Assembly (NCBI GenBank): GCA_001822675.1
Contig: MHRY01000013.1
Coordinates: 2,024-40,692, forward strand
Source: Candidatus Taylorbacteria bacterium RIFCSPLOWO2_01_FULL_45_34b
GTDB taxonomy: Bacteria > Patescibacteriota > Minisyncoccia > Phycocordibacterales > DSPV01
Length of the DNA: 38,669 nt
Direction: 5' to 3'
The notes under the pieces are model-generated. The model was not told the DNA's origin and ran no database searches. It worked only from the letters and a program-made list of their open reading frames with translations. The translations under genes were made by a program, and so were the position numbers. Shown here one piece after another: positions 1,872 to 31,307 of this stretch. Each line of letters opens with the position of its first letter. The first letter of the stretch is position 1.

Positions 1872-4800
1872 CTATTTTTTAATATCAAGGATAAAAGACA
1901 TGTCATCAATCTCGACTGTCTCACCGAACGTCTCCGCAAAACGCACACCCTTAAGAAGAGTGTTTTTGATGATTTCGGATTTGTTTTTTTCAAGAAAATC
2001 CCTGCCTGCCGGAGATGTTTGGATCGTGAGCGTGGCAAAATCCGAAATGGTAAGACCACTATTTTTACGAAGTTCTTGAACACCGCGAATAAATTCTCTG
2101 ACTTTCCCCTCTTCTTTTAATTCCGCTGTCAACTCGAAATCGAGCTCTACCTCTTCTTCTTGATCTTCAGCAAAAATAACCTCTTTAACATTGATCTCAT
2201 CGGCAATCAAATCCAAAATCTGCTTGTCTGAAACTTTTAACTTTTTACTTTTCACTTTCAACTTCTTAAGAGGTTGCCTCACTTTAATTCCCGCTTTGGC
2301 TCGAAGTTCCAAAGCAATGGAAACAATCCTTCGCACTTCGGCCATGTTCTCGATGATTCCTGAATCCTGATTCCTGATTCTTGATTCTACTTTTGGCCAC
2401 GACTCAAGATGGACGCTCTCGGGGTCGGAGCCTCCGCGAAGTTTCTGATACATTTCTTCGGCAAAAAACGGAGTGAGCGGCGCCATAATTTTGGAAAGTT
2501 CGAGAAGCACAAAGTGGAGCGTTTGGAGCGCCTGCTCCCTATCCCCAGTTTTTTCTCCATTCTTGAATCCTGCCCGCCCGAACGACTGATATTGTTCAGT
2601 CGGGCGGGAATCCAAATTCCTGAATCCACCCTTAAATCTCTCTCTTGAACGGCGAAGATACCACGTCGAAAGGTCATCAATAAAATCGGCAACCGGTCTT
2701 GCGGCTCGATCAAGTTCGTAAGCTTCCAGATTAACTGTCACCTCTCTACCAAGTTGAGAGAGCCGCGCCAAGATCCAGCGATCTAAAACATTCGCATTTG
2801 GTGATTGTTTATTGGTATTTGATGATTGCTTTTTTTCTGCATAAAGCAGAAAAAAGGCTAAAACATTATCAAGTCGCTGAATAACTTTTTTCAGAATCTC
2901 GCCAACCTCTTTCTCACTAAAACAAAAATCTTGAGCGCGTGAAGCGGGTGATGCCAAAAGATAATAACGCATAGCGTCAGCACCGTATCGTTCTACCACC
3001 TCCATCGGGTCAGGGTAATTTTTAAGATGTTTTGACATCTTCTGGCCATCCTCGGCAAGCACCGTACCATTCACCACCACATGCTCATACGCGGCTCTAT
3101 CGAAAAGTCCGACAGAAAGAACGAGCGTGGAATAAAACCAGCCGCGCGTTTGGTCTAATCCTTCCGCGATAAAATCCGCCGGATAACCTTTTGGTTTTTT
3201 GAAAAATCCGCCTCTCGGATCAAACGTATCCTTATTTTCGAACGGGTAATGAACTCCCGCGTACGGCATCGATCCGGATTCAAACCAGCAATCAAACACC
3301 TCGGGAACCCGCCGCATAATACCGCCACAAGAACAAACAAAAACCACACTATCAATGTACGGACGGTGGAGGTCGAGCGCGTAATGTTCGTTATGGGGAA
3401 GCGGCACAAACGGTATTTCTTTGACTTCAGCGTTTTTGATAAAGAAGTCAGTTGTTCCTCGGGCTGTAACCGCACGGTCGAGATCGTGTCCCCCCGCGAC
3501 AGACTCAAGAAGCCACGCCGGAGAATCATGTGTTACCATTAAAATGTTTTTTCCTTCGTATCGCTTGTCGATATTATATATAAACTCACCGACTCTCTTT
3601 GCGATATCAACATAATGCTCGCCGCCCGGGCACGTTCGCTTGAATTGCTCCTCACCGCTCCGGCAATTCAAATGGTATTCGCCGATGGGGCGACCATTAA
3701 AGAGATCGGCCTTAATTTCTCTAAGACGTTCGTCGTATATAATTTTCTCTTTTGGAAACCCGATATGATCCGCGACAATTTCCGCTGTTTCTTTAGTCCG
3801 AAGAAAAGGCGAAGAAATAATAAGGTCAATCTTTTTCCCGAGAAGCGTCTTCACAGCCGCTTTAACCTGCTCTTTGCCTTTTTCCGTCAAATGATGGGGG
3901 TTGTTGGGGTAAGAACTGACCACGCCGAGCACATTGTTCTCCGCCTCGCCGTGACGCATCAGAAGATAATTGTTTCGAGGCTTCGCACTGTCTTTCAGAT
4001 CTTCAATTGAACCGACAAACTTCATCTTTTCACACTGCTCGCATTTCCAAACCGGAATAGGCGCGCCGAAGTACCGTGAGCGTGAAATCGCCCAATCTCG
4101 AATGCCGGAAAGCCAATCACCGAAACGATTCTCTCCCACTTCCCTCGGCACCCACCTGATTTTATTATTTTCCGCGATGAGCTTTTCTTTGAGAGCCGTT
4201 GTTTTGACAAACCACGACGACGAGGCGAAGTTGAGAAGCGGCGTTTCGCAGCGCCAGCAGTGTGGGTAGGAATGCGTGATTTTTTCCTTGGCAAAAAGCA
4301 AACCGCGATTGGCGATATTTTTGAGAATTTCAATATCCGCCCGAGAAGGATCGTCTTTCGGTTTTACGTCGATACCAGCGAAATCTTTGATCTCCGGAAC
4401 AAATTTGCCGTCAGTCGAGACATGCCGGATAAGCGGCAGACCTTCGAGCTCCGCCAAAGCAAGATCATCTTCACCGAAAGCTGGCGCGATATGAACAACA
4501 CCGGTGCCTTTTTCCAAGGTCACAAACGGCGCGACATACACCTTCCACGCTTTTTCGATGCCCTTGATGCGTGCATCTTTGTAATAATTAAAAACCGGTT
4601 TATAAGAAAGGTCAACAAGCTCGCTTCCTTTATATTCCTCGACAATCGTGTACTCCTCTTTTATAAGAGAAAGTTTTTCCTTGGCCAAAATATAGCGACT
4701 CTGCCCCACTGCCACTTTGACGTAGACAATGTCGGGGTGGACCGCGAGCGCCACGTTCCCCGGCAGCGTCCACGGCGTCGTCGTCCAAACCAAAAAACAA

Positions 4801-5459
4801 GTGCCCGGCTCACGGGTCAGTTCAAATTTCACATACACCGAAATGTCGGTAACGTCTTTGTAACCCTGACTGACTTCAAAATTAGAAAGGGTGGTGCCGC
4901 ATCGAGGACAGAGATGCATTGATTTGAATCCTTCGTAAATCAGACCTTTTTTATGGAGTTCTTTGAAAGCAAACCAGACGCTCTCGGTGTATCTCGCGTC
5001 CATGGTCTTGTAGTCATCATCCATATCAACCCATCGTCCGGTACGCGGAATAATTTCTCTCCACTCTTCGGCGTAGCGAAGCACTGCCTCTCTGGCCACA
5101 CGGTTGAATTTTTCAATACCGAGCGTTTCGATATCGCGCTTGGTTTTAAGCCCCAGTTCTTTTTCAACGAGATTTTCAACTGGCAATCCGTGACAATCCC
5201 AACCCCATCGTCGACGAACATGATACCCTTGCATGGTTTTGAACCGCGGGATGACATCTTTAATCGTGCCTGCCAAAATGTGCCCATAGTGAGGCAGGCC
5301 AGTCGCAAACGGCGGGCCATCATAAAAGACAAACTCGCCTTTTGGCGCTGGCTTTTCAAGCGACTTCTCAAAAATCTGTTTGCGTTTCCAAAAAGCGAGA
5401 ACAGCCTCCTCTCGTTCGGCAACCTTTAACTTTTGTGGGTTTTGTTCCTGCTCTGGCAT
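1872..5459 (-). CDS. ileS: Isoleucyl-tRNA synthetase with embedded histidine-phosphatase domain
   Basis: This enzyme charges tRNA-Ile with isoleucine and edits misactivated valine. The 1195-residue protein has the class I HIGH motif as HYGH (57-60), GWDCHGLPVE (86-95), the CP1 editing domain (about 180-400), DWAISRSRYFGAPIPVW (455-471) and KMSKH (807-811). The ISRSRYFG form and overall layout resemble the eukaryote-like IleRS type. A complete histidine phosphatase fills residues about 494-690, between the CEQC zinc pair and LHRPYIDSVVFVCSCGG, where ordinary IleRS proteins run straight on. Three intergenic-type repeats also lie in frame in the C-terminal half (near residues 944-967, 1027-1037 and 1064-1078). 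Start ATG 5459; no strong Shine-Dalgarno sequence. It is followed by recO. Confidence 0.97.
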   Translation of the reverse strand: MPEQEQNPQKLKVAEREEAVLAFWKRKQIFEKSLEKPAPKGEFVFYDGPPFATGLPHYGHILAGTIKDVIPRFKTMQGYHVRRRWGWDCHGLPVENLVEKELGLKTKRDIETLGIEKFNRVAREAVLRYAEEWREIIPRTGRWVDMDDDYKTMDARYTESVWFAFKELHKKGLIYEGFKSMHLCPRCGTTLSNFEVSQGYKDVTDISVYVKFELTREPGTCFLVWTTTPWTLPGNVALAVHPDIVYVKVAVGQSRYILAKEKLSLIKEEYTIVEEYKGSELVDLSYKPVFNYYKDARIKGIEKAWKVYVAPFVTLEKGTGVVHIAPAFGEDDLALAELEGLPLIRHVSTDGKFVPEIKDFAGIDVKPKDDPSRADIEILKNIANRGLLFAKEKITHSYPHCWRCETPLLNFASSSWFVKTTALKEKLIAENNKIRWVPREVGENRFGDWLSGIRDWAISRSRYFGAPIPVWKCEQCEKMKFVGSIEDLKDSAKPRNNYLLMRHGEAENNVLGVVSSYPNNPHHLTEKGKEQVKAAVKTLLGKKIDLIISSPFLRTKETAEIVADHIGFPKEKIIYDERLREIKADLFNGRPIGEYHLNCRSGEEQFKRTCPGGEHYVDIAKRVGEFIYNIDKRYEGKNILMVTHDSPAWLLESVAGGHDLDRAVTARGTTDFFIKNAEVKEIPFVPLPHNEHYALDLHRPYIDSVVFVCSCGGIMRRVPEVFDCWFESGSMPYAGVHYPFENKDTFDPRGGFFKKPKGYPADFIAEGLDQTRGWFYSTLVLSVGLFDRAAYEHVVVNGTVLAEDGQKMSKHLKNYPDPMEVVERYGADAMRYYLLASPASRAQDFCFSEKEVGEILKKVIQRLDNVLAFFLLYAEKKQSSNTNKQSPNANVLDRWILARLSQLGREVTVNLEAYELDRAARPVADFIDDLSTWYLRRSRERFKGGFRNLDSRPTEQYQSFGRAGFKNGEKTGDREQALQTLHFVLLELSKIMAPLTPFFAEEMYQKLRGGSDPESVHLESWPKVESRIRNQDSGIIENMAEVRRIVSIALELRAKAGIKVRQPLKKLKVKSKKLKVSDKQILDLIADEINVKEVIFAEDQEEEVELDFELTAELKEEGKVREFIRGVQELRKNSGLTISDFATLTIQTSPAGRDFLEKNKSEIIKNTLLKGVRFAETFGETVEIDDMSFILDIKK
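2231..2266. repeat. AAAGT-type short repeat cluster inside ileS
   Basis: Degenerate repeats of aactttt and actttca encode the lysine-rich KKLKVKSKKLKV stretch near residue 1070 of IleRS. A similar AAAGT-rich run lies between thyA and folA (15443-15472), which supports a dispersed simple repeat. Confidence 0.55.
2355..2387. repeat. GAATC/GATTC short repeat cluster inside ileS
   Basis: Five to six near-copies of a 7-nt unit (gattcct, gaatcct, gattctt) run in tandem and encode RIRNQDSGII near residue 1030 of IleRS. The composition is that of intergenic simple repeats, not of conserved synthetase sequence. Confidence 0.65.
2573..2608. repeat. REP-like 36-bp hairpin inside ileS
   Basis: An inverted repeat with GC-rich arms CCCGCCCGAACGACTGA and TCAGTCGGGCGGG lies in frame in ileS and is flanked by GAATC-type repeats (2557-2632). 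Apart from one base it is identical to the reverse complement of the intergenic element at 19254-19289. It encodes residues around 952-964 of IleRS, a stretch absent from ordinary IleRS. Confidence 0.85.
3390..3980 (-). other. Histidine-phosphatase (phosphoglycerate-mutase-like) domain inside IleRS
   Basis: Residues about 494-690 of IleRS hold every signature of the histidine phosphatase superfamily. They are LLMRHGEAENN with the phospho-accepting His503 and Arg502, SSPFLRTKETAE with Arg554, RLREIKADLFNGRP with probable acid Glu581, and MVTHDSP with His644. The active site therefore appears intact. The flanking residues match ordinary IleRS on both sides, so this is an in-frame domain insertion rather than a frameshifted neighbour. 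The substrate cannot be read from sequence. Confidence 0.9.
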
Positions 5460-5461
5460 AT

Positions 5462-5756
5462 ACCCGATAAACTTTTTAGCTATTAAAAAAGTTGCATAAT
5501 ACTTTCTTTATATAATTTCGACCCCATTGCGTTTTTAAATACTTTTCGCGTTGAAACGCGTCTTTTTGATTTAAAAATGCTTCGTAATAAATCAACCGTA
5601 AAGGCACTCTTCTAGCGGTGGAAGCAACTTTTTTTGCATTATGCAGTTGCAATCTTTTCCGCAAATCGCTCGTACAACCGGTATATAAGTTATGATCAGC
5701 CCTGCTCTGTAAAACATACACATACTGCATAATGGTAGCTAAAAAGTTTCGCGGGT
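5462..5756. mobile_element. Putative small element: GIY-YIG ORF between 21-bp inverted repeats
   Basis: The 21-bp segments 5462-5482 and 5736-5756 are inverted copies of each other with 19 of 21 matches; the mismatches are at positions 6-7. They share ACCCG followed by AAACTTTTTAGCTA. They bracket the GIY-YIG ORF, and the right end directly abuts the DGR-flanking repeat at 5757. No target-site duplication is obvious. Mobility is inferred from the arrangement only. Confidence 0.5.
5476..5730 (-). CDS. GIY-YIG nuclease family protein
   Basis: The 84-residue protein is a stand-alone GIY-YIG domain. YVYVLQSRADHNLYTGCTSDL carries the paired YV-L and YTG elements of the fold. RKRLQLHN gives the conserved Arg and His, LRLIYYEAF the tyrosine strand, and AFQREKYLKTQWGR the helix with the catalytic Glu. 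Single-domain proteins of this kind (UPF0213/YhbQ-like) are plentiful in CPR genomes; their substrate is not established and some relatives are mobile nucleases. ATG 5730 is the only good start, without an evident Shine-Dalgarno sequence. It lies 16 bp upstream of ileS on the same strand and between the inverted repeats described for 5462-5756. Confidence 0.9.
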   Translation of the reverse strand: MQYVYVLQSRADHNLYTGCTSDLRKRLQLHNAKKVASTARRVPLRLIYYEAFLNQKDAFQREKYLKTQWGRNYIKKVLCNFFNS

Positions 5757-5789
5757 AAAAAAGCGCTAGAATATGATGATTCTAGCACT
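5757..5789 (-). terminator. Terminator of the reverse transcriptase gene, copy 1 of a 33-bp direct repeat
   Basis: On the minus strand GCTAGAAT, a 6-nt loop and ATTCTAGC are followed by GC and six T, a canonical intrinsic terminator that overlaps the rt stop codon. The whole 33 bp recurs identically at 8420-8452 in the same orientation. Confidence 0.8.
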
Positions 5790-6774
5790 ATTTCAGGAAT
5801 TTTGAAATTTTATTTTGCAAACCATATGCATTACCATGCTTCAATAATCCAATATATGAAATGATACTTTGAGGTGTTGGATTCTCGTTAATTCGCTTTA
5901 TCATTCTTCTTTTTGTACTTGTCCTCAAAACTCGATGTTTTGGAAAATTCACCCAGCCTAAAAAATCAACTCCAGAAGCAACTGTTTGTATGAAAACTTT
6001 GTCAGGGTGTAATTCTAGTTTTAACTTCTCATGTAGATATCTTACGATATATCGTAAGACAACTTTCAACTCTTTTTTATCTCCAGATAAAATCACAAAA
6101 TCATCAGCATACCGAATGTAGTATTTAATTTTTAAATTATGTTTAACATATTGATCAAATTCGTTCATGTAAATATTGACTAAAAGCTGGGAGGTCAGGT
6201 TACCGAGTGGTAATCCTATTCCCTTATTTGTGGAGCAAAAACTTTCTACTATATTCTGGATAAGCCACAAAATATCTTTGTTTGGTATGTATTTGTCGAG
6301 AATTTGATAAAGCAAAAAATGGTCAATGTTCGCAAAGAATTTTTTTATATCACACTTAAGCACCCACACTGTTTTTGTATTATTTTTACTAACACGAAAA
6401 AAATATCTTCTGAATGTTTCCACTGCTTTATGTGTGCCCTTCTGAAGTCGGCACGAGTACGAATCAGTCGCAAATACTCTGTCAAAAAACGGGTACAACT
6501 TTCTATACAAGGCACGATGAAGCAGTCTGTCCCTCACACTTGCCTTGTGAATATCACGGGGTTTCGGGTCAGAAATTTTGAAATGCTTATACGGTTCATG
6601 CTGATATGTCTTATCTTTAAGCTCTTGATGCAAAGAGAAAATATTGTCCATAAGCCGTAATTGAAATTCCTGTACATCCTTTTTTTTCCGCTTCCCTTTT
6701 ATAAACTCTTGCCATGCACCAAGTAAATTCTCGATAGAAATGATATCGTTATATGTATGAGCGAATTGAATCAT
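5788..6774 (-). CDS. DGR-type reverse transcriptase
   Basis: This error-prone reverse transcriptase copies a template RNA with random substitution at adenines and supports replacement of the variable repeat of a target gene. The 328-residue protein has the palm motifs in order: VLKCDIKKFFANID with catalytic Asp142, GIGLPLGNLTSQLLVNIYMNEFD (185-207), and YYIRYADDFVIL with Asp224/Asp225. FLGWVNFPK follows near 272. The GNLTSQ and NE-LDQ-type wording and short length are those of DGR reverse transcriptases rather than group II introns; there is no maturase or endonuclease domain. The start is ATG 6774 with AGGAG 4 nt upstream on the minus strand. A G10 tract lies just beyond that ribosome-binding site. 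Template repeat and target lie upstream in the same orientation. Confidence 0.95.
   Translation of the reverse strand: MIQFAHTYNDIISIENLLGAWQEFIKGKRKKKDVQEFQLRLMDNIFSLHQELKDKTYQHEPYKHFKISDPKPRDIHKASVRDRLLHRALYRKLYPFFDRVFATDSYSCRLQKGTHKAVETFRRYFFRVSKNNTKTVWVLKCDIKKFFANIDHFLLYQILDKYIPNKDILWLIQNIVESFCSTNKGIGLPLGNLTSQLLVNIYMNEFDQYVKHNLKIKYYIRYADDFVILSGDKKELKVVLRYIVRYLHEKLKLELHPDKVFIQTVASGVDFLGWVNFPKHRVLRTSTKRRMIKRINENPTPQSIISYIGLLKHGNAYGLQNKISKFLK
6040..6059. repeat. Perfect palindrome within the rt gene
   Basis: TCTTACGATATATCGTAAGA is a perfect 20-bp palindrome encoding part of LRYIVRYL in the reverse transcriptase. The same 20 bp form the core of the 32-bp intergenic palindrome at 26949-26980. 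Confidence 0.7.
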
Positions 6775-7189
6775 TCTCCTAACGATACCCCCCCCCCGAG
6801 CACTTTTTCAACAGAAACTCGTTCCCGTTATTCTTAAACTTAAAGACGCCTATGGTTTGTGGCAAAAGTATCTGGCACATTTTCCCAAAGCTAATCGTTT
6901 TACTCTTGGATCAAAAATAGACGAGGTATTTCTTGCGACCATTGAATATTGCTTCCTTGCAAGTTACGCAAACGTACAGGAAAAAATGCCCCTGCTTAAT
7001 CGTTGTATTTCAAGAGTTGACCTTCTTAAGTTATTGCTTCTCCTTGCATGGGAAATCAAAGCGCTTGATACAAAAAAATATATTCATCTCTCCGAACACA
7101 TGGTAGAAGTAGGTAGAATGCTTGGAGGCTGGAGACGTCAACTCGTAAACAAAACTCCCCTACCTAAAAAGGAAGGGGAGAAATCGTGA
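6757..7189 (+). CDS. avd: DGR accessory protein Avd, reading frame broken at a C10 tract
   Basis: Avd forms a five-subunit four-helix-bundle barrel that binds the DGR reverse transcriptase and template RNA. The frame 6770-7189 encodes LFQQKLVPVILKLKDAYGLW, HFPKANRFTLGSKIDEVFL, LLNRCISRVDLLKLLLLLAW and the family-typical ending MVEVGRMLGGWRRQL. It has no ATG, GTG or TTG before TTG 6857, which would delete the first helix. The upstream ATG 6757 reads MSELNHSPNDTPPP and joins this frame only if the C10 tract at 6788-6797 loses one C (or gains two). The gene is therefore either switched off by slippage, read by frameshifting, or affected by an assembly error. It runs opposite to rt, TR and target, and its presumed start overlaps the 5' end of rt by 18 bp. 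Confidence 0.85.
6788..6797. repeat. C10 homopolymer tract at the rt/avd junction
   Basis: Ten consecutive C lie inside the 5' part of avd (plus strand) and upstream of the rt ribosome-binding site (minus strand). Nine or twelve C would restore a single avd frame from ATG 6757. Such tracts are classic sites of slipped-strand phase variation. Confidence 0.85.
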
Positions 7190-7194
7190 TAGTG

Positions 7195-7320
7195 GCGCAC
7201 CGCGAGGAACCGGTAGTTGCCATTCCAGTCATTGTCAAACCAATTGAGGTTGAGCTTGCGCTTCGAGTCATACTTGTCGAGGTAGAGGACGTTGCGATTA
7301 CCGTTGACCTTCGCGACGGA
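7195..7320 (-). repeat. DGR template repeat (TR)
   Basis: This 126-bp segment matches 7654-7779 base for base except at 21 positions, each of which is A in the TR when read on the minus strand. TR has 31 adenines on that strand; no non-adenine position differs. Read in the target frame, TR carries AAY codons where the target has Arg, His, Asp, Tyr or Gly. It begins 5 bp after the avd stop and lies between the target gene and rt in the same orientation as both. Confidence 0.97.
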
Positions 7321-7647
7321 GCTTTGTATAAAATACCTTCCAAACCACTGCCTGTCGAAAACTCCGCAGTAGTCTCAAGGCTGTATCGTATTCGTGATGT
7401 ATAGTATCACCTAGTATTTCACACCAACTGTCTCTGATTTTTTACGGAAACCAAGTGGCACTCTTCGGGAAGCCATAACCGCCCGAACTCTCACCTCTTG
7501 GGTTGCGGACAAATTACCCAAAGCCGTAACCTTGGATTTTTCATTTGTCACTTTTATTTTAGCAAAAAAAATGACCCTCCAAAACTTTTTCAAGTTTCAA
7601 AGGGTCAAAGTGCCTAAGGGCAAAACCGAGAGACAAGGTGCAGAGAA
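7321..7647. other. Non-coding interval between TR and target gene; probable TR RNA leader
   Basis: No convincing gene is seen here. The target terminator occupies 7561-7606. The rest on the minus strand probably holds the promoter and 5' leader of the template RNA. A 60-codon frame at 7411-7593 runs through the terminator and has no recognisable motif. Next to VR at 7613-7622, GCC-TAAG-GGC could form only a very small hairpin. Confidence 0.4.
7561..7606 (-). terminator. Intrinsic terminator of the DGR target gene
   Basis: On the minus strand GACCCT and a partly paired AAACTT/AAGTTT extension close on AGGGTC, followed by an eight-T run. It lies about 40 bp after the target stop codon and separates it from TR. 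Confidence 0.8.
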
Positions 7648-8283
7648 CTATTTGCGCACCGCGAGGAACCGGCAGTAGCCACCCCAGCCACAGTCAAACC
7701 AATGGAGGTAGAGCCGGCGCCCCGAGCCACACTCGTCGAGGTAGAGGACGTAGCGATCACCGTGGACCCGCGCGACGGAACCAAGTTCTACAATTGGAAA
7801 CTCTCTCTGCACTTGGGGATTGTGTTCCCCGAAAGCCAGAAGTTCTTCAGTCGCCGCCGGTCGGTAGCCTTCTTTATCCATTTCTTTGATGGCGTCTTCT
7901 GACGAAATGTACCGCCCGAAATGAAACAGGGCGGATTCCACCTGACGGCTTCCTATACCTTTTATCGGAAATCGCTCTTCAGTGATCTCGGAATTCGTCC
8001 AGTCGTACTTGCCCGCCCCAATCATCTCCGGAAGAGGGCGACAATTGACAGCGAACGTGTATGGAGTGATTGTAGGTTTCAGAATGGGCGGGGTAATTAG
8101 AGGAAGACCAAGAAGTGCACGAATGCCATCGCGTTTCGTTGTATCAAGACTTCCGGCCTTGGCGGCTTCGAAAACGTCGGTGATAATGCCGGAGCAAATC
8201 GCCGTCTGCAGTTCCTTGTCCGTAAGCTCTTTTTGTTGAGCAAGCTCGAGCAATTTGCCTGCCTGTTTGAGGGTTGCGTTCAT
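7648..8283 (-). CDS. DGR target protein with C-terminal variable repeat (C-type-lectin-like fold inferred)
   Basis: The 211-residue protein is the diversified product of the DGR. An N-terminal helical part (LKQAGKLLELAQQKELTDKELQTAICSGIITDVFEAAK) is followed by a linker and a C-terminal domain. That domain opens with YRPAATEELLAFGEHNP and ends in the variable segment, where WFD, W and RFLAVRK are invariant. This ending is usual for DGR targets with a formylglycine-enzyme/C-type-lectin-like fold, in which diversified residues line a binding face. ATG 8283 is preferred because GAAAGG lies 6 nt upstream; the frame opens earlier (ATG 8367) but without a ribosome-binding site. No signal peptide is evident. 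The ligand is unknown. Confidence 0.9.
   Translation of the reverse strand: MNATLKQAGKLLELAQQKELTDKELQTAICSGIITDVFEAAKAGSLDTTKRDGIRALLGLPLITPPILKPTITPYTFAVNCRPLPEMIGAGKYDWTNSEITEERFPIKGIGSRQVESALFHFGRYISSEDAIKEMDKEGYRPAATEELLAFGEHNPQVQREFPIVELGSVARVHGDRYVLYLDECGSGRRLYLHWFDCGWGGYCRFLAVRK
7654..7779 (-). repeat. DGR variable repeat (VR)
   Basis: These are the last coding bases of the target gene, 126 bp aligned without gaps to TR 7195-7320. Substitutions fall at 21 of the 31 TR adenines and nowhere else. The invariant GC-rich end CCGGTTCCTCGCGGTGCGC next to the stop codon is the likely IMH (initiation of mutagenic homology) site. Confidence 0.97.
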
Positions 8284-8419
8284 CGCAAGCCTTTCTGTGT
8301 TTTGCAGTCCGTGTTTAGCGGGTGCGTTGATTATCAAAACCAGCGTCATGCCGATTTCTACTGACAAAATACTAGCATAAGTAGGCTATATTTGTCAATA
8401 GCCGTTGCAGAAACGTATT

Positions 8420-8452
8420 AAAAAAGCGCTAGAATATGATGATTCTAGCACT
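8420..8452 (-). terminator. Terminator of the 8475-8864 gene, copy 2 of the 33-bp direct repeat
   Basis: This 33-bp sequence is identical to 5757-5789: an 8-bp stem, a 6-nt loop and a T6 tail on the minus strand. It ends the small gene just upstream and marks the outer boundary of the DGR block. Confidence 0.8.
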
Positions 8453-30650: not shown

Positions 30651-31307
30651 TTAGATCTTGCGAACGCGAATAACGGTCGAGTTGACAACACTGCCAACAC
30701 TTGAGGTCGCCTTAGCTTCGCCTGCCGTGACCGTACCGCCATTACCACCATCGGAATCAGTGGTGCCGCCACCGGTCGTGTTGTTATCGTCCTTGTCACC
30801 GTTGATGTTGCCACTGTCCTTCACTTTGGTCGTAGCGCTGCCGCCGTCTGTTGAATTCAAACCGGTGTCAGCCAACGTACCCACCTCATTCACAACAGTG
30901 GTGTTCTTATTCTTCACACGAACATCAATATCACCCTTGCAACCGCACTCGGTCTTGACCTTAATGTCGGTTGAATTAACATCGTTCCACACGGTTGAAT
31001 CTGCCTTAGCTTTGCCTGTCGTGACCGTACCGCCATTACCACCATCGGAATCAGTGGTGCCGCCACCGGTCGTGTTGTTATCGTCCTTGTTGCCGTTGAT
31101 GTTTCCGCTATTCTTTACCTTAGTGGTTGCGCTACCGCCGTCGGCAGTATTACCGCCAGTGTATGCGCCCGTGGAGACACCATTTACAACAGTGGTGCCG
31201 CTATTCTTCACGTAAACATCAATGTCAGATGCCCAGTGAGAAGCAAAAGCTGGCGAAGCCGCAACAAACATCGCGGCCGCCGCAATTCCTGCAATAACTT
31301 TATTCAT
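30651..31307 (-). CDS. Secreted low-complexity protein with two tandem 98-residue repeats
   Basis: A 218-residue protein with a signal peptide (MNKVIAGIAAAAMFVAASPAFA) and two repeats of about 98 residues. Each has a DIDVYVKNSGTTVVNGV-like start, GGSATTKVKNSGNING, KDDNNTTGGGTTDSDGGNGGTVT and a TGKAKA--N-VNST ending. The wording relates it to the TGDA modules of the 887-residue protein. One CGCKGD lies between the repeats. It is rich in Gly, Asn, Asp and Thr with no aromatic core, so a fibre, matrix or cell-surface coat is more likely than an enzyme. A long leader with hairpins precedes it. Confidence 0.8.
   Translation of the reverse strand: MNKVIAGIAAAAMFVAASPAFASHWASDIDVYVKNSGTTVVNGVSTGAYTGGNTADGGSATTKVKNSGNINGNKDDNNTTGGGTTDSDGGNGGTVTTGKAKADSTVWNDVNSTDIKVKTECGCKGDIDVRVKNKNTTVVNEVGTLADTGLNSTDGGSATTKVKDSGNINGDKDDNNTTGGGTTDSDGGNGGTVTAGEAKATSSVGSVVNSTVIRVRKI
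30726..30796. repeat. Internal direct repeat, copy 1
   Basis: About 70 bp are identical to 31020-31090, 294 bp (98 codons) away, in the two-repeat secreted protein gene. Identity at silent positions implies recent duplication or gene conversion. Confidence 0.8.
31020..31090. repeat. Internal direct repeat, copy 2
   Basis: This is the partner of 30726-30796, in the same orientation. Confidence 0.8.

Follow-up and report, generated by a model that had tools for sequence, protein, structure and literature searches.

A simple sequence repeat in avd as a candidate phase-variation switch of Patescibacteria diversity-generating retroelements

The diversity-generating retroelement (DGR) analysed here, which belongs to an ultra-small (CPR) bacterium, carries a run of ten cytosines near the start of avd that separates the first ATG from the part of the gene encoding the Avd core, and a simple sequence repeat recurs at this one site in a large number of related elements. 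We consider it highly likely that avd is a contingency locus, in which slipped-strand phase variation switches the DGR on and off at random and in a heritable manner. It is also likely, if held with slightly less assurance, that such a stochastic, heritable switch governs Patescibacteria DGRs on a large scale: simple sequence repeats, acquired convergently at the avd 5′ end, would enable targeted hypermutation in the smaller share of cells, and a target variant that has proved successful would be retained in all others. Such an element would be a phase-variable mutator that stacks one programmed source of variation upon another. The presence of a Patescibacteria-type DGR is in itself ordinary; the C10 tract in avd is the real novelty, and it was overlooked in the preliminary description of this DNA.

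The element and its parts

The window, by which we mean the whole stretch of 38,669 nucleotides that was analysed, contains the following features:

5756 to 5789, no strand assigned: left-hand copy of a 34-bp direct repeat without mismatches; seen from the minus strand, a terminator-like hairpin with T's after it, at the 3′ end of the reverse transcriptase gene
5788 to 6774, minus strand: DGR-type reverse transcriptase (RT), 328 amino acids, YADD motif, Pfam RVT_1 at 8e-25
6757 to 7189, plus strand: avd gene; ATG at 6757, N-terminal codons, C10, four-helix core from about 6824, stop codon at 7187-7189; frame broken in the assembly
6788 to 6797, plus strand: C10 homopolymer, the proposed phase-variation tract; one of four runs of at least eight C in 777 kb
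7195 to 7320, minus strand: template repeat (TR), from the alignment with the variable repeat
7654 to 7779, minus strand: variable repeat (VR); differs from the TR at 21 of the 31 TR adenines and at no other base
7648 to 8283, minus strand: target gene, 211 amino acids; likely start ATG at 8283 with AGAAAGG upstream; C-terminal domain resembling C-type lectin folds
8419 to 8452, no strand assigned: right-hand copy of the direct repeat, 34 bp, identical to 5756-5789

Read along the minus strand, the target (8283-7648, with the VR at its 3′ end, 7779-7654) is followed by the TR (7320-7195) and the RT (6774-5788), and avd occupies the space that separates RT from TR, on the plus strand. The element is a DGR of Patescibacteria type, as judged from its RT, its Avd fold and its C-type-lectin-like target domain; the placement in the Patescibacteria group follows from the RT relatives, since those with a lineage given in the title belong to CPR bacteria. 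Identity of the RT to many Patescibacteria RTs reaches at most 65-68%, and to BPP-1 Brt it is 33%. That a DGR-type RT and Avd adjoin the repeats, as first described, is borne out by the RVT_1 match, the YADD motif and a match of Avd to Pfam bAvd (PF22296) above the cut-off; the NCBIfam Avd model also matches, below that model's cut-off. The Avd core is modelled as a four-helix bundle (pLDDT 93) whose best solved match is BPP-1 Avd (4DWL, TM 0.79/0.89). The target reading frame ends with the VR, and modelling of its C-terminus, which the preliminary description had suggested, gave a confident structure for the last 140 residues, with top PDB matches that are weak and mostly C-type lectin domains.

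On the minus strand TR and VR align over 126 bp without gaps and with 21 mismatches (13 A>G, 4 A>C and 4 A>T), all of them at the 31 template adenines and none at the 95 other bases, exactly as previously reported; were the mismatches random, the probability of all 21 landing on adenines would be about 1e-16. A whole-genome scan in which the A positions were left free found no copies or VRs matching this template beyond the TR and VR themselves. Because the adenine-only pattern is exact, the DGR was active in the past, and the earlier statement that it has worked in this lineage is upheld; the rider that it did so “probably more than once” does not follow, since one round and several rounds leave the same pattern.

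The interval 5757-8452 is bracketed by the exact 34-bp direct repeat that holds the terminator-like hairpin. With just two copies of its 22-bp core in the genome, the repeat cannot be a genome-wide terminator family, and a mobile cassette between such repeats is rejected as a general feature, given that direct repeats of at least 18 bp surround the DGR in 3 of 64 relatives. One other DGR (L056) is flanked by a similar 33-bp repeat pair, and the 34-bp copies are possibly the trace of a cassette insertion. Elsewhere in the window, an open reading frame with a GIY-YIG domain (5476-5730, minus strand, Pfam 3.5e-15) lies between the large reading frame 1872-5459 and the DGR, and a 140-bp direct repeat (30709-30848 and 31003-31142), whose 14 mismatches show no adenine bias, is unrelated to the DGR.

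The avd gene is divergent from the RT gene and overlaps its start, such that ATG 6757 is antisense to it. Its open frame (6770-7189) lies only around and after the C10 tract; ATG 6757 is in a different frame from the core, the tract separates the two, and either C11 or C8 would join them. As assembled, no ATG, GTG or TTG leads into the avd frame before helix 1. The element had been called complete, which holds in that all parts are present and fails in that avd is out of frame at C10 in the assembly, with the proviso that tract lengths in metagenome assemblies may be off by one, leaving single on/off calls, this one included, unsure. A second DGR in the same genome (contig C42, locus L003) has RT and avd laid out in the same way, with C9 at the equivalent site, out of frame; the only other runs of at least eight C in the 777-kb genome are two intergenic ones. 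The VR of the second DGR falls inside a run of 76 N (L003 4422-4497), as if the assembler had failed at a hypervariable repeat. A further reading frame, whose end is at L003 7262, encodes a DGR-target-like C-terminus.

The repeat at the avd 5′ end across relatives

Among 111 related RT loci, 108 had a recognisable divergent avd, and 106 of these have a simple sequence repeat placed directly ahead of the Avd core, a frequency that overstates the one in the phylum because the loci were picked by RT similarity to the window. The repeat is C6-C14 in 95 cases, a dinucleotide in eight, (CT)n and (CA)n among them, and a tetranucleotide in three, (GTCA)n, (AACC)n and (ACGA)n at one locus each. The two exceptions are a fragmentary hit (L045) and a degenerate, in-frame ACCCCACCAGCC (L064). 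A phylum-wide sample of 380 genomes, 119 of them with avd, provided 86 distinct loci that were read: 56 have the repeat (41 C, 13 dinucleotide, one tetranucleotide and one pentanucleotide) and 30 have none, and (CAAT)7, (AGGAC)7 and (GA)23 are added to the catalogue. The units found are thus of 1, 2, 4 or 5 nucleotides, and neither sample holds a single unit of 3 or 6 at the avd site, an absence expected only if the repeat acts on the reading frame.

Outside this site the loci are nearly devoid of such tracts. In 80 loci (750 kb), 69 C/G tracts of at least 8 lie at the avd site versus two elsewhere, and for dinucleotide tracts of at least 6 the counts are six versus none. A comparison set of 29 DGR loci (196 kb), taken from viral contigs, from phages such as BPP-1 and from plasmids that belong to other bacteria, contained no C/G tract of at least 8, no dinucleotide of at least 5 copies and no tetranucleotide repeat; the four IMG/VR loci that share the divergent avd layout have in-frame ATGs.

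Related avd genes with similar flanks (L016, L084, L102 and L148) carry different tetranucleotide units (GTCA, AACC, ACGA and CAAT), indicating that the unit turns over while the site stays, and tract length differs in 6 of 7 homologous pairs with equal-length flanks, these being differences between species. On a tree of 190 Avd cores, which rests on a short alignment and has many open forks, presence of the repeat changes 12 times, at least seven of them on well-supported branches, and the dinucleotide type changes at least six times. The MutS_V domain is absent from the window genome and from 58 of the 60 genomes searched, and present in 11 of 14 control genomes; since it is mostly absent, long tracts should slip often.

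Reading frames and competing accounts of the repeat

Scored relative to the nearest open upstream ATG, 24 of 105 avd genes of the first sample are in frame, and 40 and 41 are in the two other frames (chi-square against thirds, p=0.07). In the phylum-wide sample an in-frame ATG precedes the core in all 30 genes without a repeat versus 20 of the 56 with one (Fisher p=4e-10), such that repeat-bearing avd genes are in frame in about a third of cases or fewer. Avd cores of the out-of-frame genes are nearly all full length, and close pairs of such genes give dN/dS of about 0.02-0.09 where it could be computed; judging from these comparisons, out-of-frame avd remains under strong purifying selection. 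The adenine-specific record is likewise present in both groups: 1200 of 2074 template adenines are changed in out-of-frame DGRs, with 40 other mismatches, and 365 of 669 in in-frame DGRs, with 18 others, where the informative part is the comparison of the two groups, given that the TR/VR search favours few non-A mismatches. If Avd is needed, the out-of-frame DGRs would have had it recently.

As at contingency loci, therefore, a repeat whose unit is not a multiple of three lies inside the avd reading frame, relatives differ in frame, and the downstream avd frame is conserved. In this account the slippery repeat, C10 in the window, follows the start codon of avd and precedes the region coding for the four-helix bundle, and replication slippage within populations would add or remove units, never in multiples of three, with avd entering and leaving frame randomly, reversibly and heritably. 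We infer that the frame controls the level of Avd and that the DGRs of this clade depend on Avd. When avd is in frame, Avd would be made and, as in BPP-1, the RT would then copy TR RNA with errors at adenines into the VR; when it is out of frame, retrohoming would stop and the current target variant would be passed on unchanged. On these premises most cells would have the DGR off at any given time.

Other accounts of the repeat can be envisioned. The tract might belong to an untranslated leader, with Avd starting downstream and tract length acting as a spacer that tunes how strongly avd or the divergent RT is transcribed or translated. Many loci do have a TTG just before LPV at helix 1, translation in a good many out-of-frame loci could begin at an in-frame TTG, GTG or ATG located after the tract and ahead of helix 1, and the tract lies within about 65 bp upstream of the RT start in most. 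However, 40 loci, the window included, have neither an upstream in-frame start nor any ATG, GTG or TTG between tract and helix 1, and in 22 of them there is no start codon even to +30; all 30 repeat-free avd genes begin at an in-frame ATG upstream of the core, and the lack of units of 3 or 6 is again what only a frame effect predicts, making the leader account unlikely. Long C runs can also be slippery for polymerases and ribosomes, and it is conceivable that one or the other slips on the tract in a programmed way and supplies a low, steady level of Avd with no switch at all. RNA polymerase slippage would yield some in-frame message from any phase. Were the ribosome programmed to shift, a single frame should be fixed, yet all three occur among relatives (24:40:41); moreover, the C run is replaced in places by di-, tetra- and pentanucleotide repeats, which are poor slippage signals. 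We regard programmed slippage as decidedly unlikely, with the mixed frames speaking against a programmed frameshift in particular.

Assembly errors in homopolymers, or decay of avd into pseudogenes, would also break frames. The exact length of C runs of at least 9 is difficult to recover in assembly, and one locus has an N adjoining the tract (L017) and another a gap one base after it (L083). Error would nonetheless have to strike a single site in more than 160 loci and in several unit types, and decay is at odds with avd cores that are intact and under purifying selection; artefact or decay is thus very improbable. A phase-variable avd is the reading that we prefer.

Relation to known systems

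The closest well-studied counterpart is the BPP-1 DGR (mtd-avd-TR-brt), which shares with the window element an RT, an Avd four-helix bundle, a TR/VR pair, adenine-specific changes and a lectin-like target C-terminus. Avd is essential for BPP-1 retrohoming, also when the system is rebuilt in E. coli, and RT-Avd is recruited there by a spacer located in the interval between TR and RT (PMC12875486). The BPP-1 avd gene has an intact start and is placed after VR and before TR, on the strand that carries both, whereas avd in the window is divergent from the RT, runs antisense within the TR-RT interval and has its frame broken by a repeat near the start. Were an avd transcript to continue into the TR, it would be antisense to the template.

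CPR bacteria are already known to carry DGRs (PMC8144416). DGR clade 2 of Roux et al. 2021 (Patescibacteria/CPR; PMC8144416) has in common with the window the host lineage, a cellular DGR and a target without a recognised domain, the likeness resting on these features rather than on clade placement; the available part of that paper mentions neither a repeat nor phase variation in the clade, and it does not decide whether selection or a control of RT activity lies behind the slower target turnover of cellular DGRs. No report of a phase-variable DGR was found in the literature searched, mostly titles and abstracts, a scope outside which lie bioRxiv and most subscription journals, with the CPR-DGR surveys published there. 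Three candidate papers, in their available parts, concern host phase variation (PMC10053308), a reference (PMC12386605) and VR change itself (PMC8778435). CPR DGRs and repeat-driven phase variation are each known, and their joining is new as far as this literature goes.

The natural regulation of DGR activity has been called an open frontier (PMC12875486). If true, the avd repeat switch would answer the question for a large bacterial group in a way that is simple and can be tested, and it would explain how diversified variants are kept and later released to vary again; by the same token, it would be wrong to discount out-of-frame avd genes as absent or defective. The proposed switch resembles the simple sequence repeat contingency loci of Neisseria, Haemophilus and Campylobacter, with which it shares C/G runs and di- and tetranucleotides early in the frame and mixed phases among relatives. 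Those loci mostly switch surface structures or DNA methyltransferases, whereas the gene switched here would be the cofactor of a targeted mutator.
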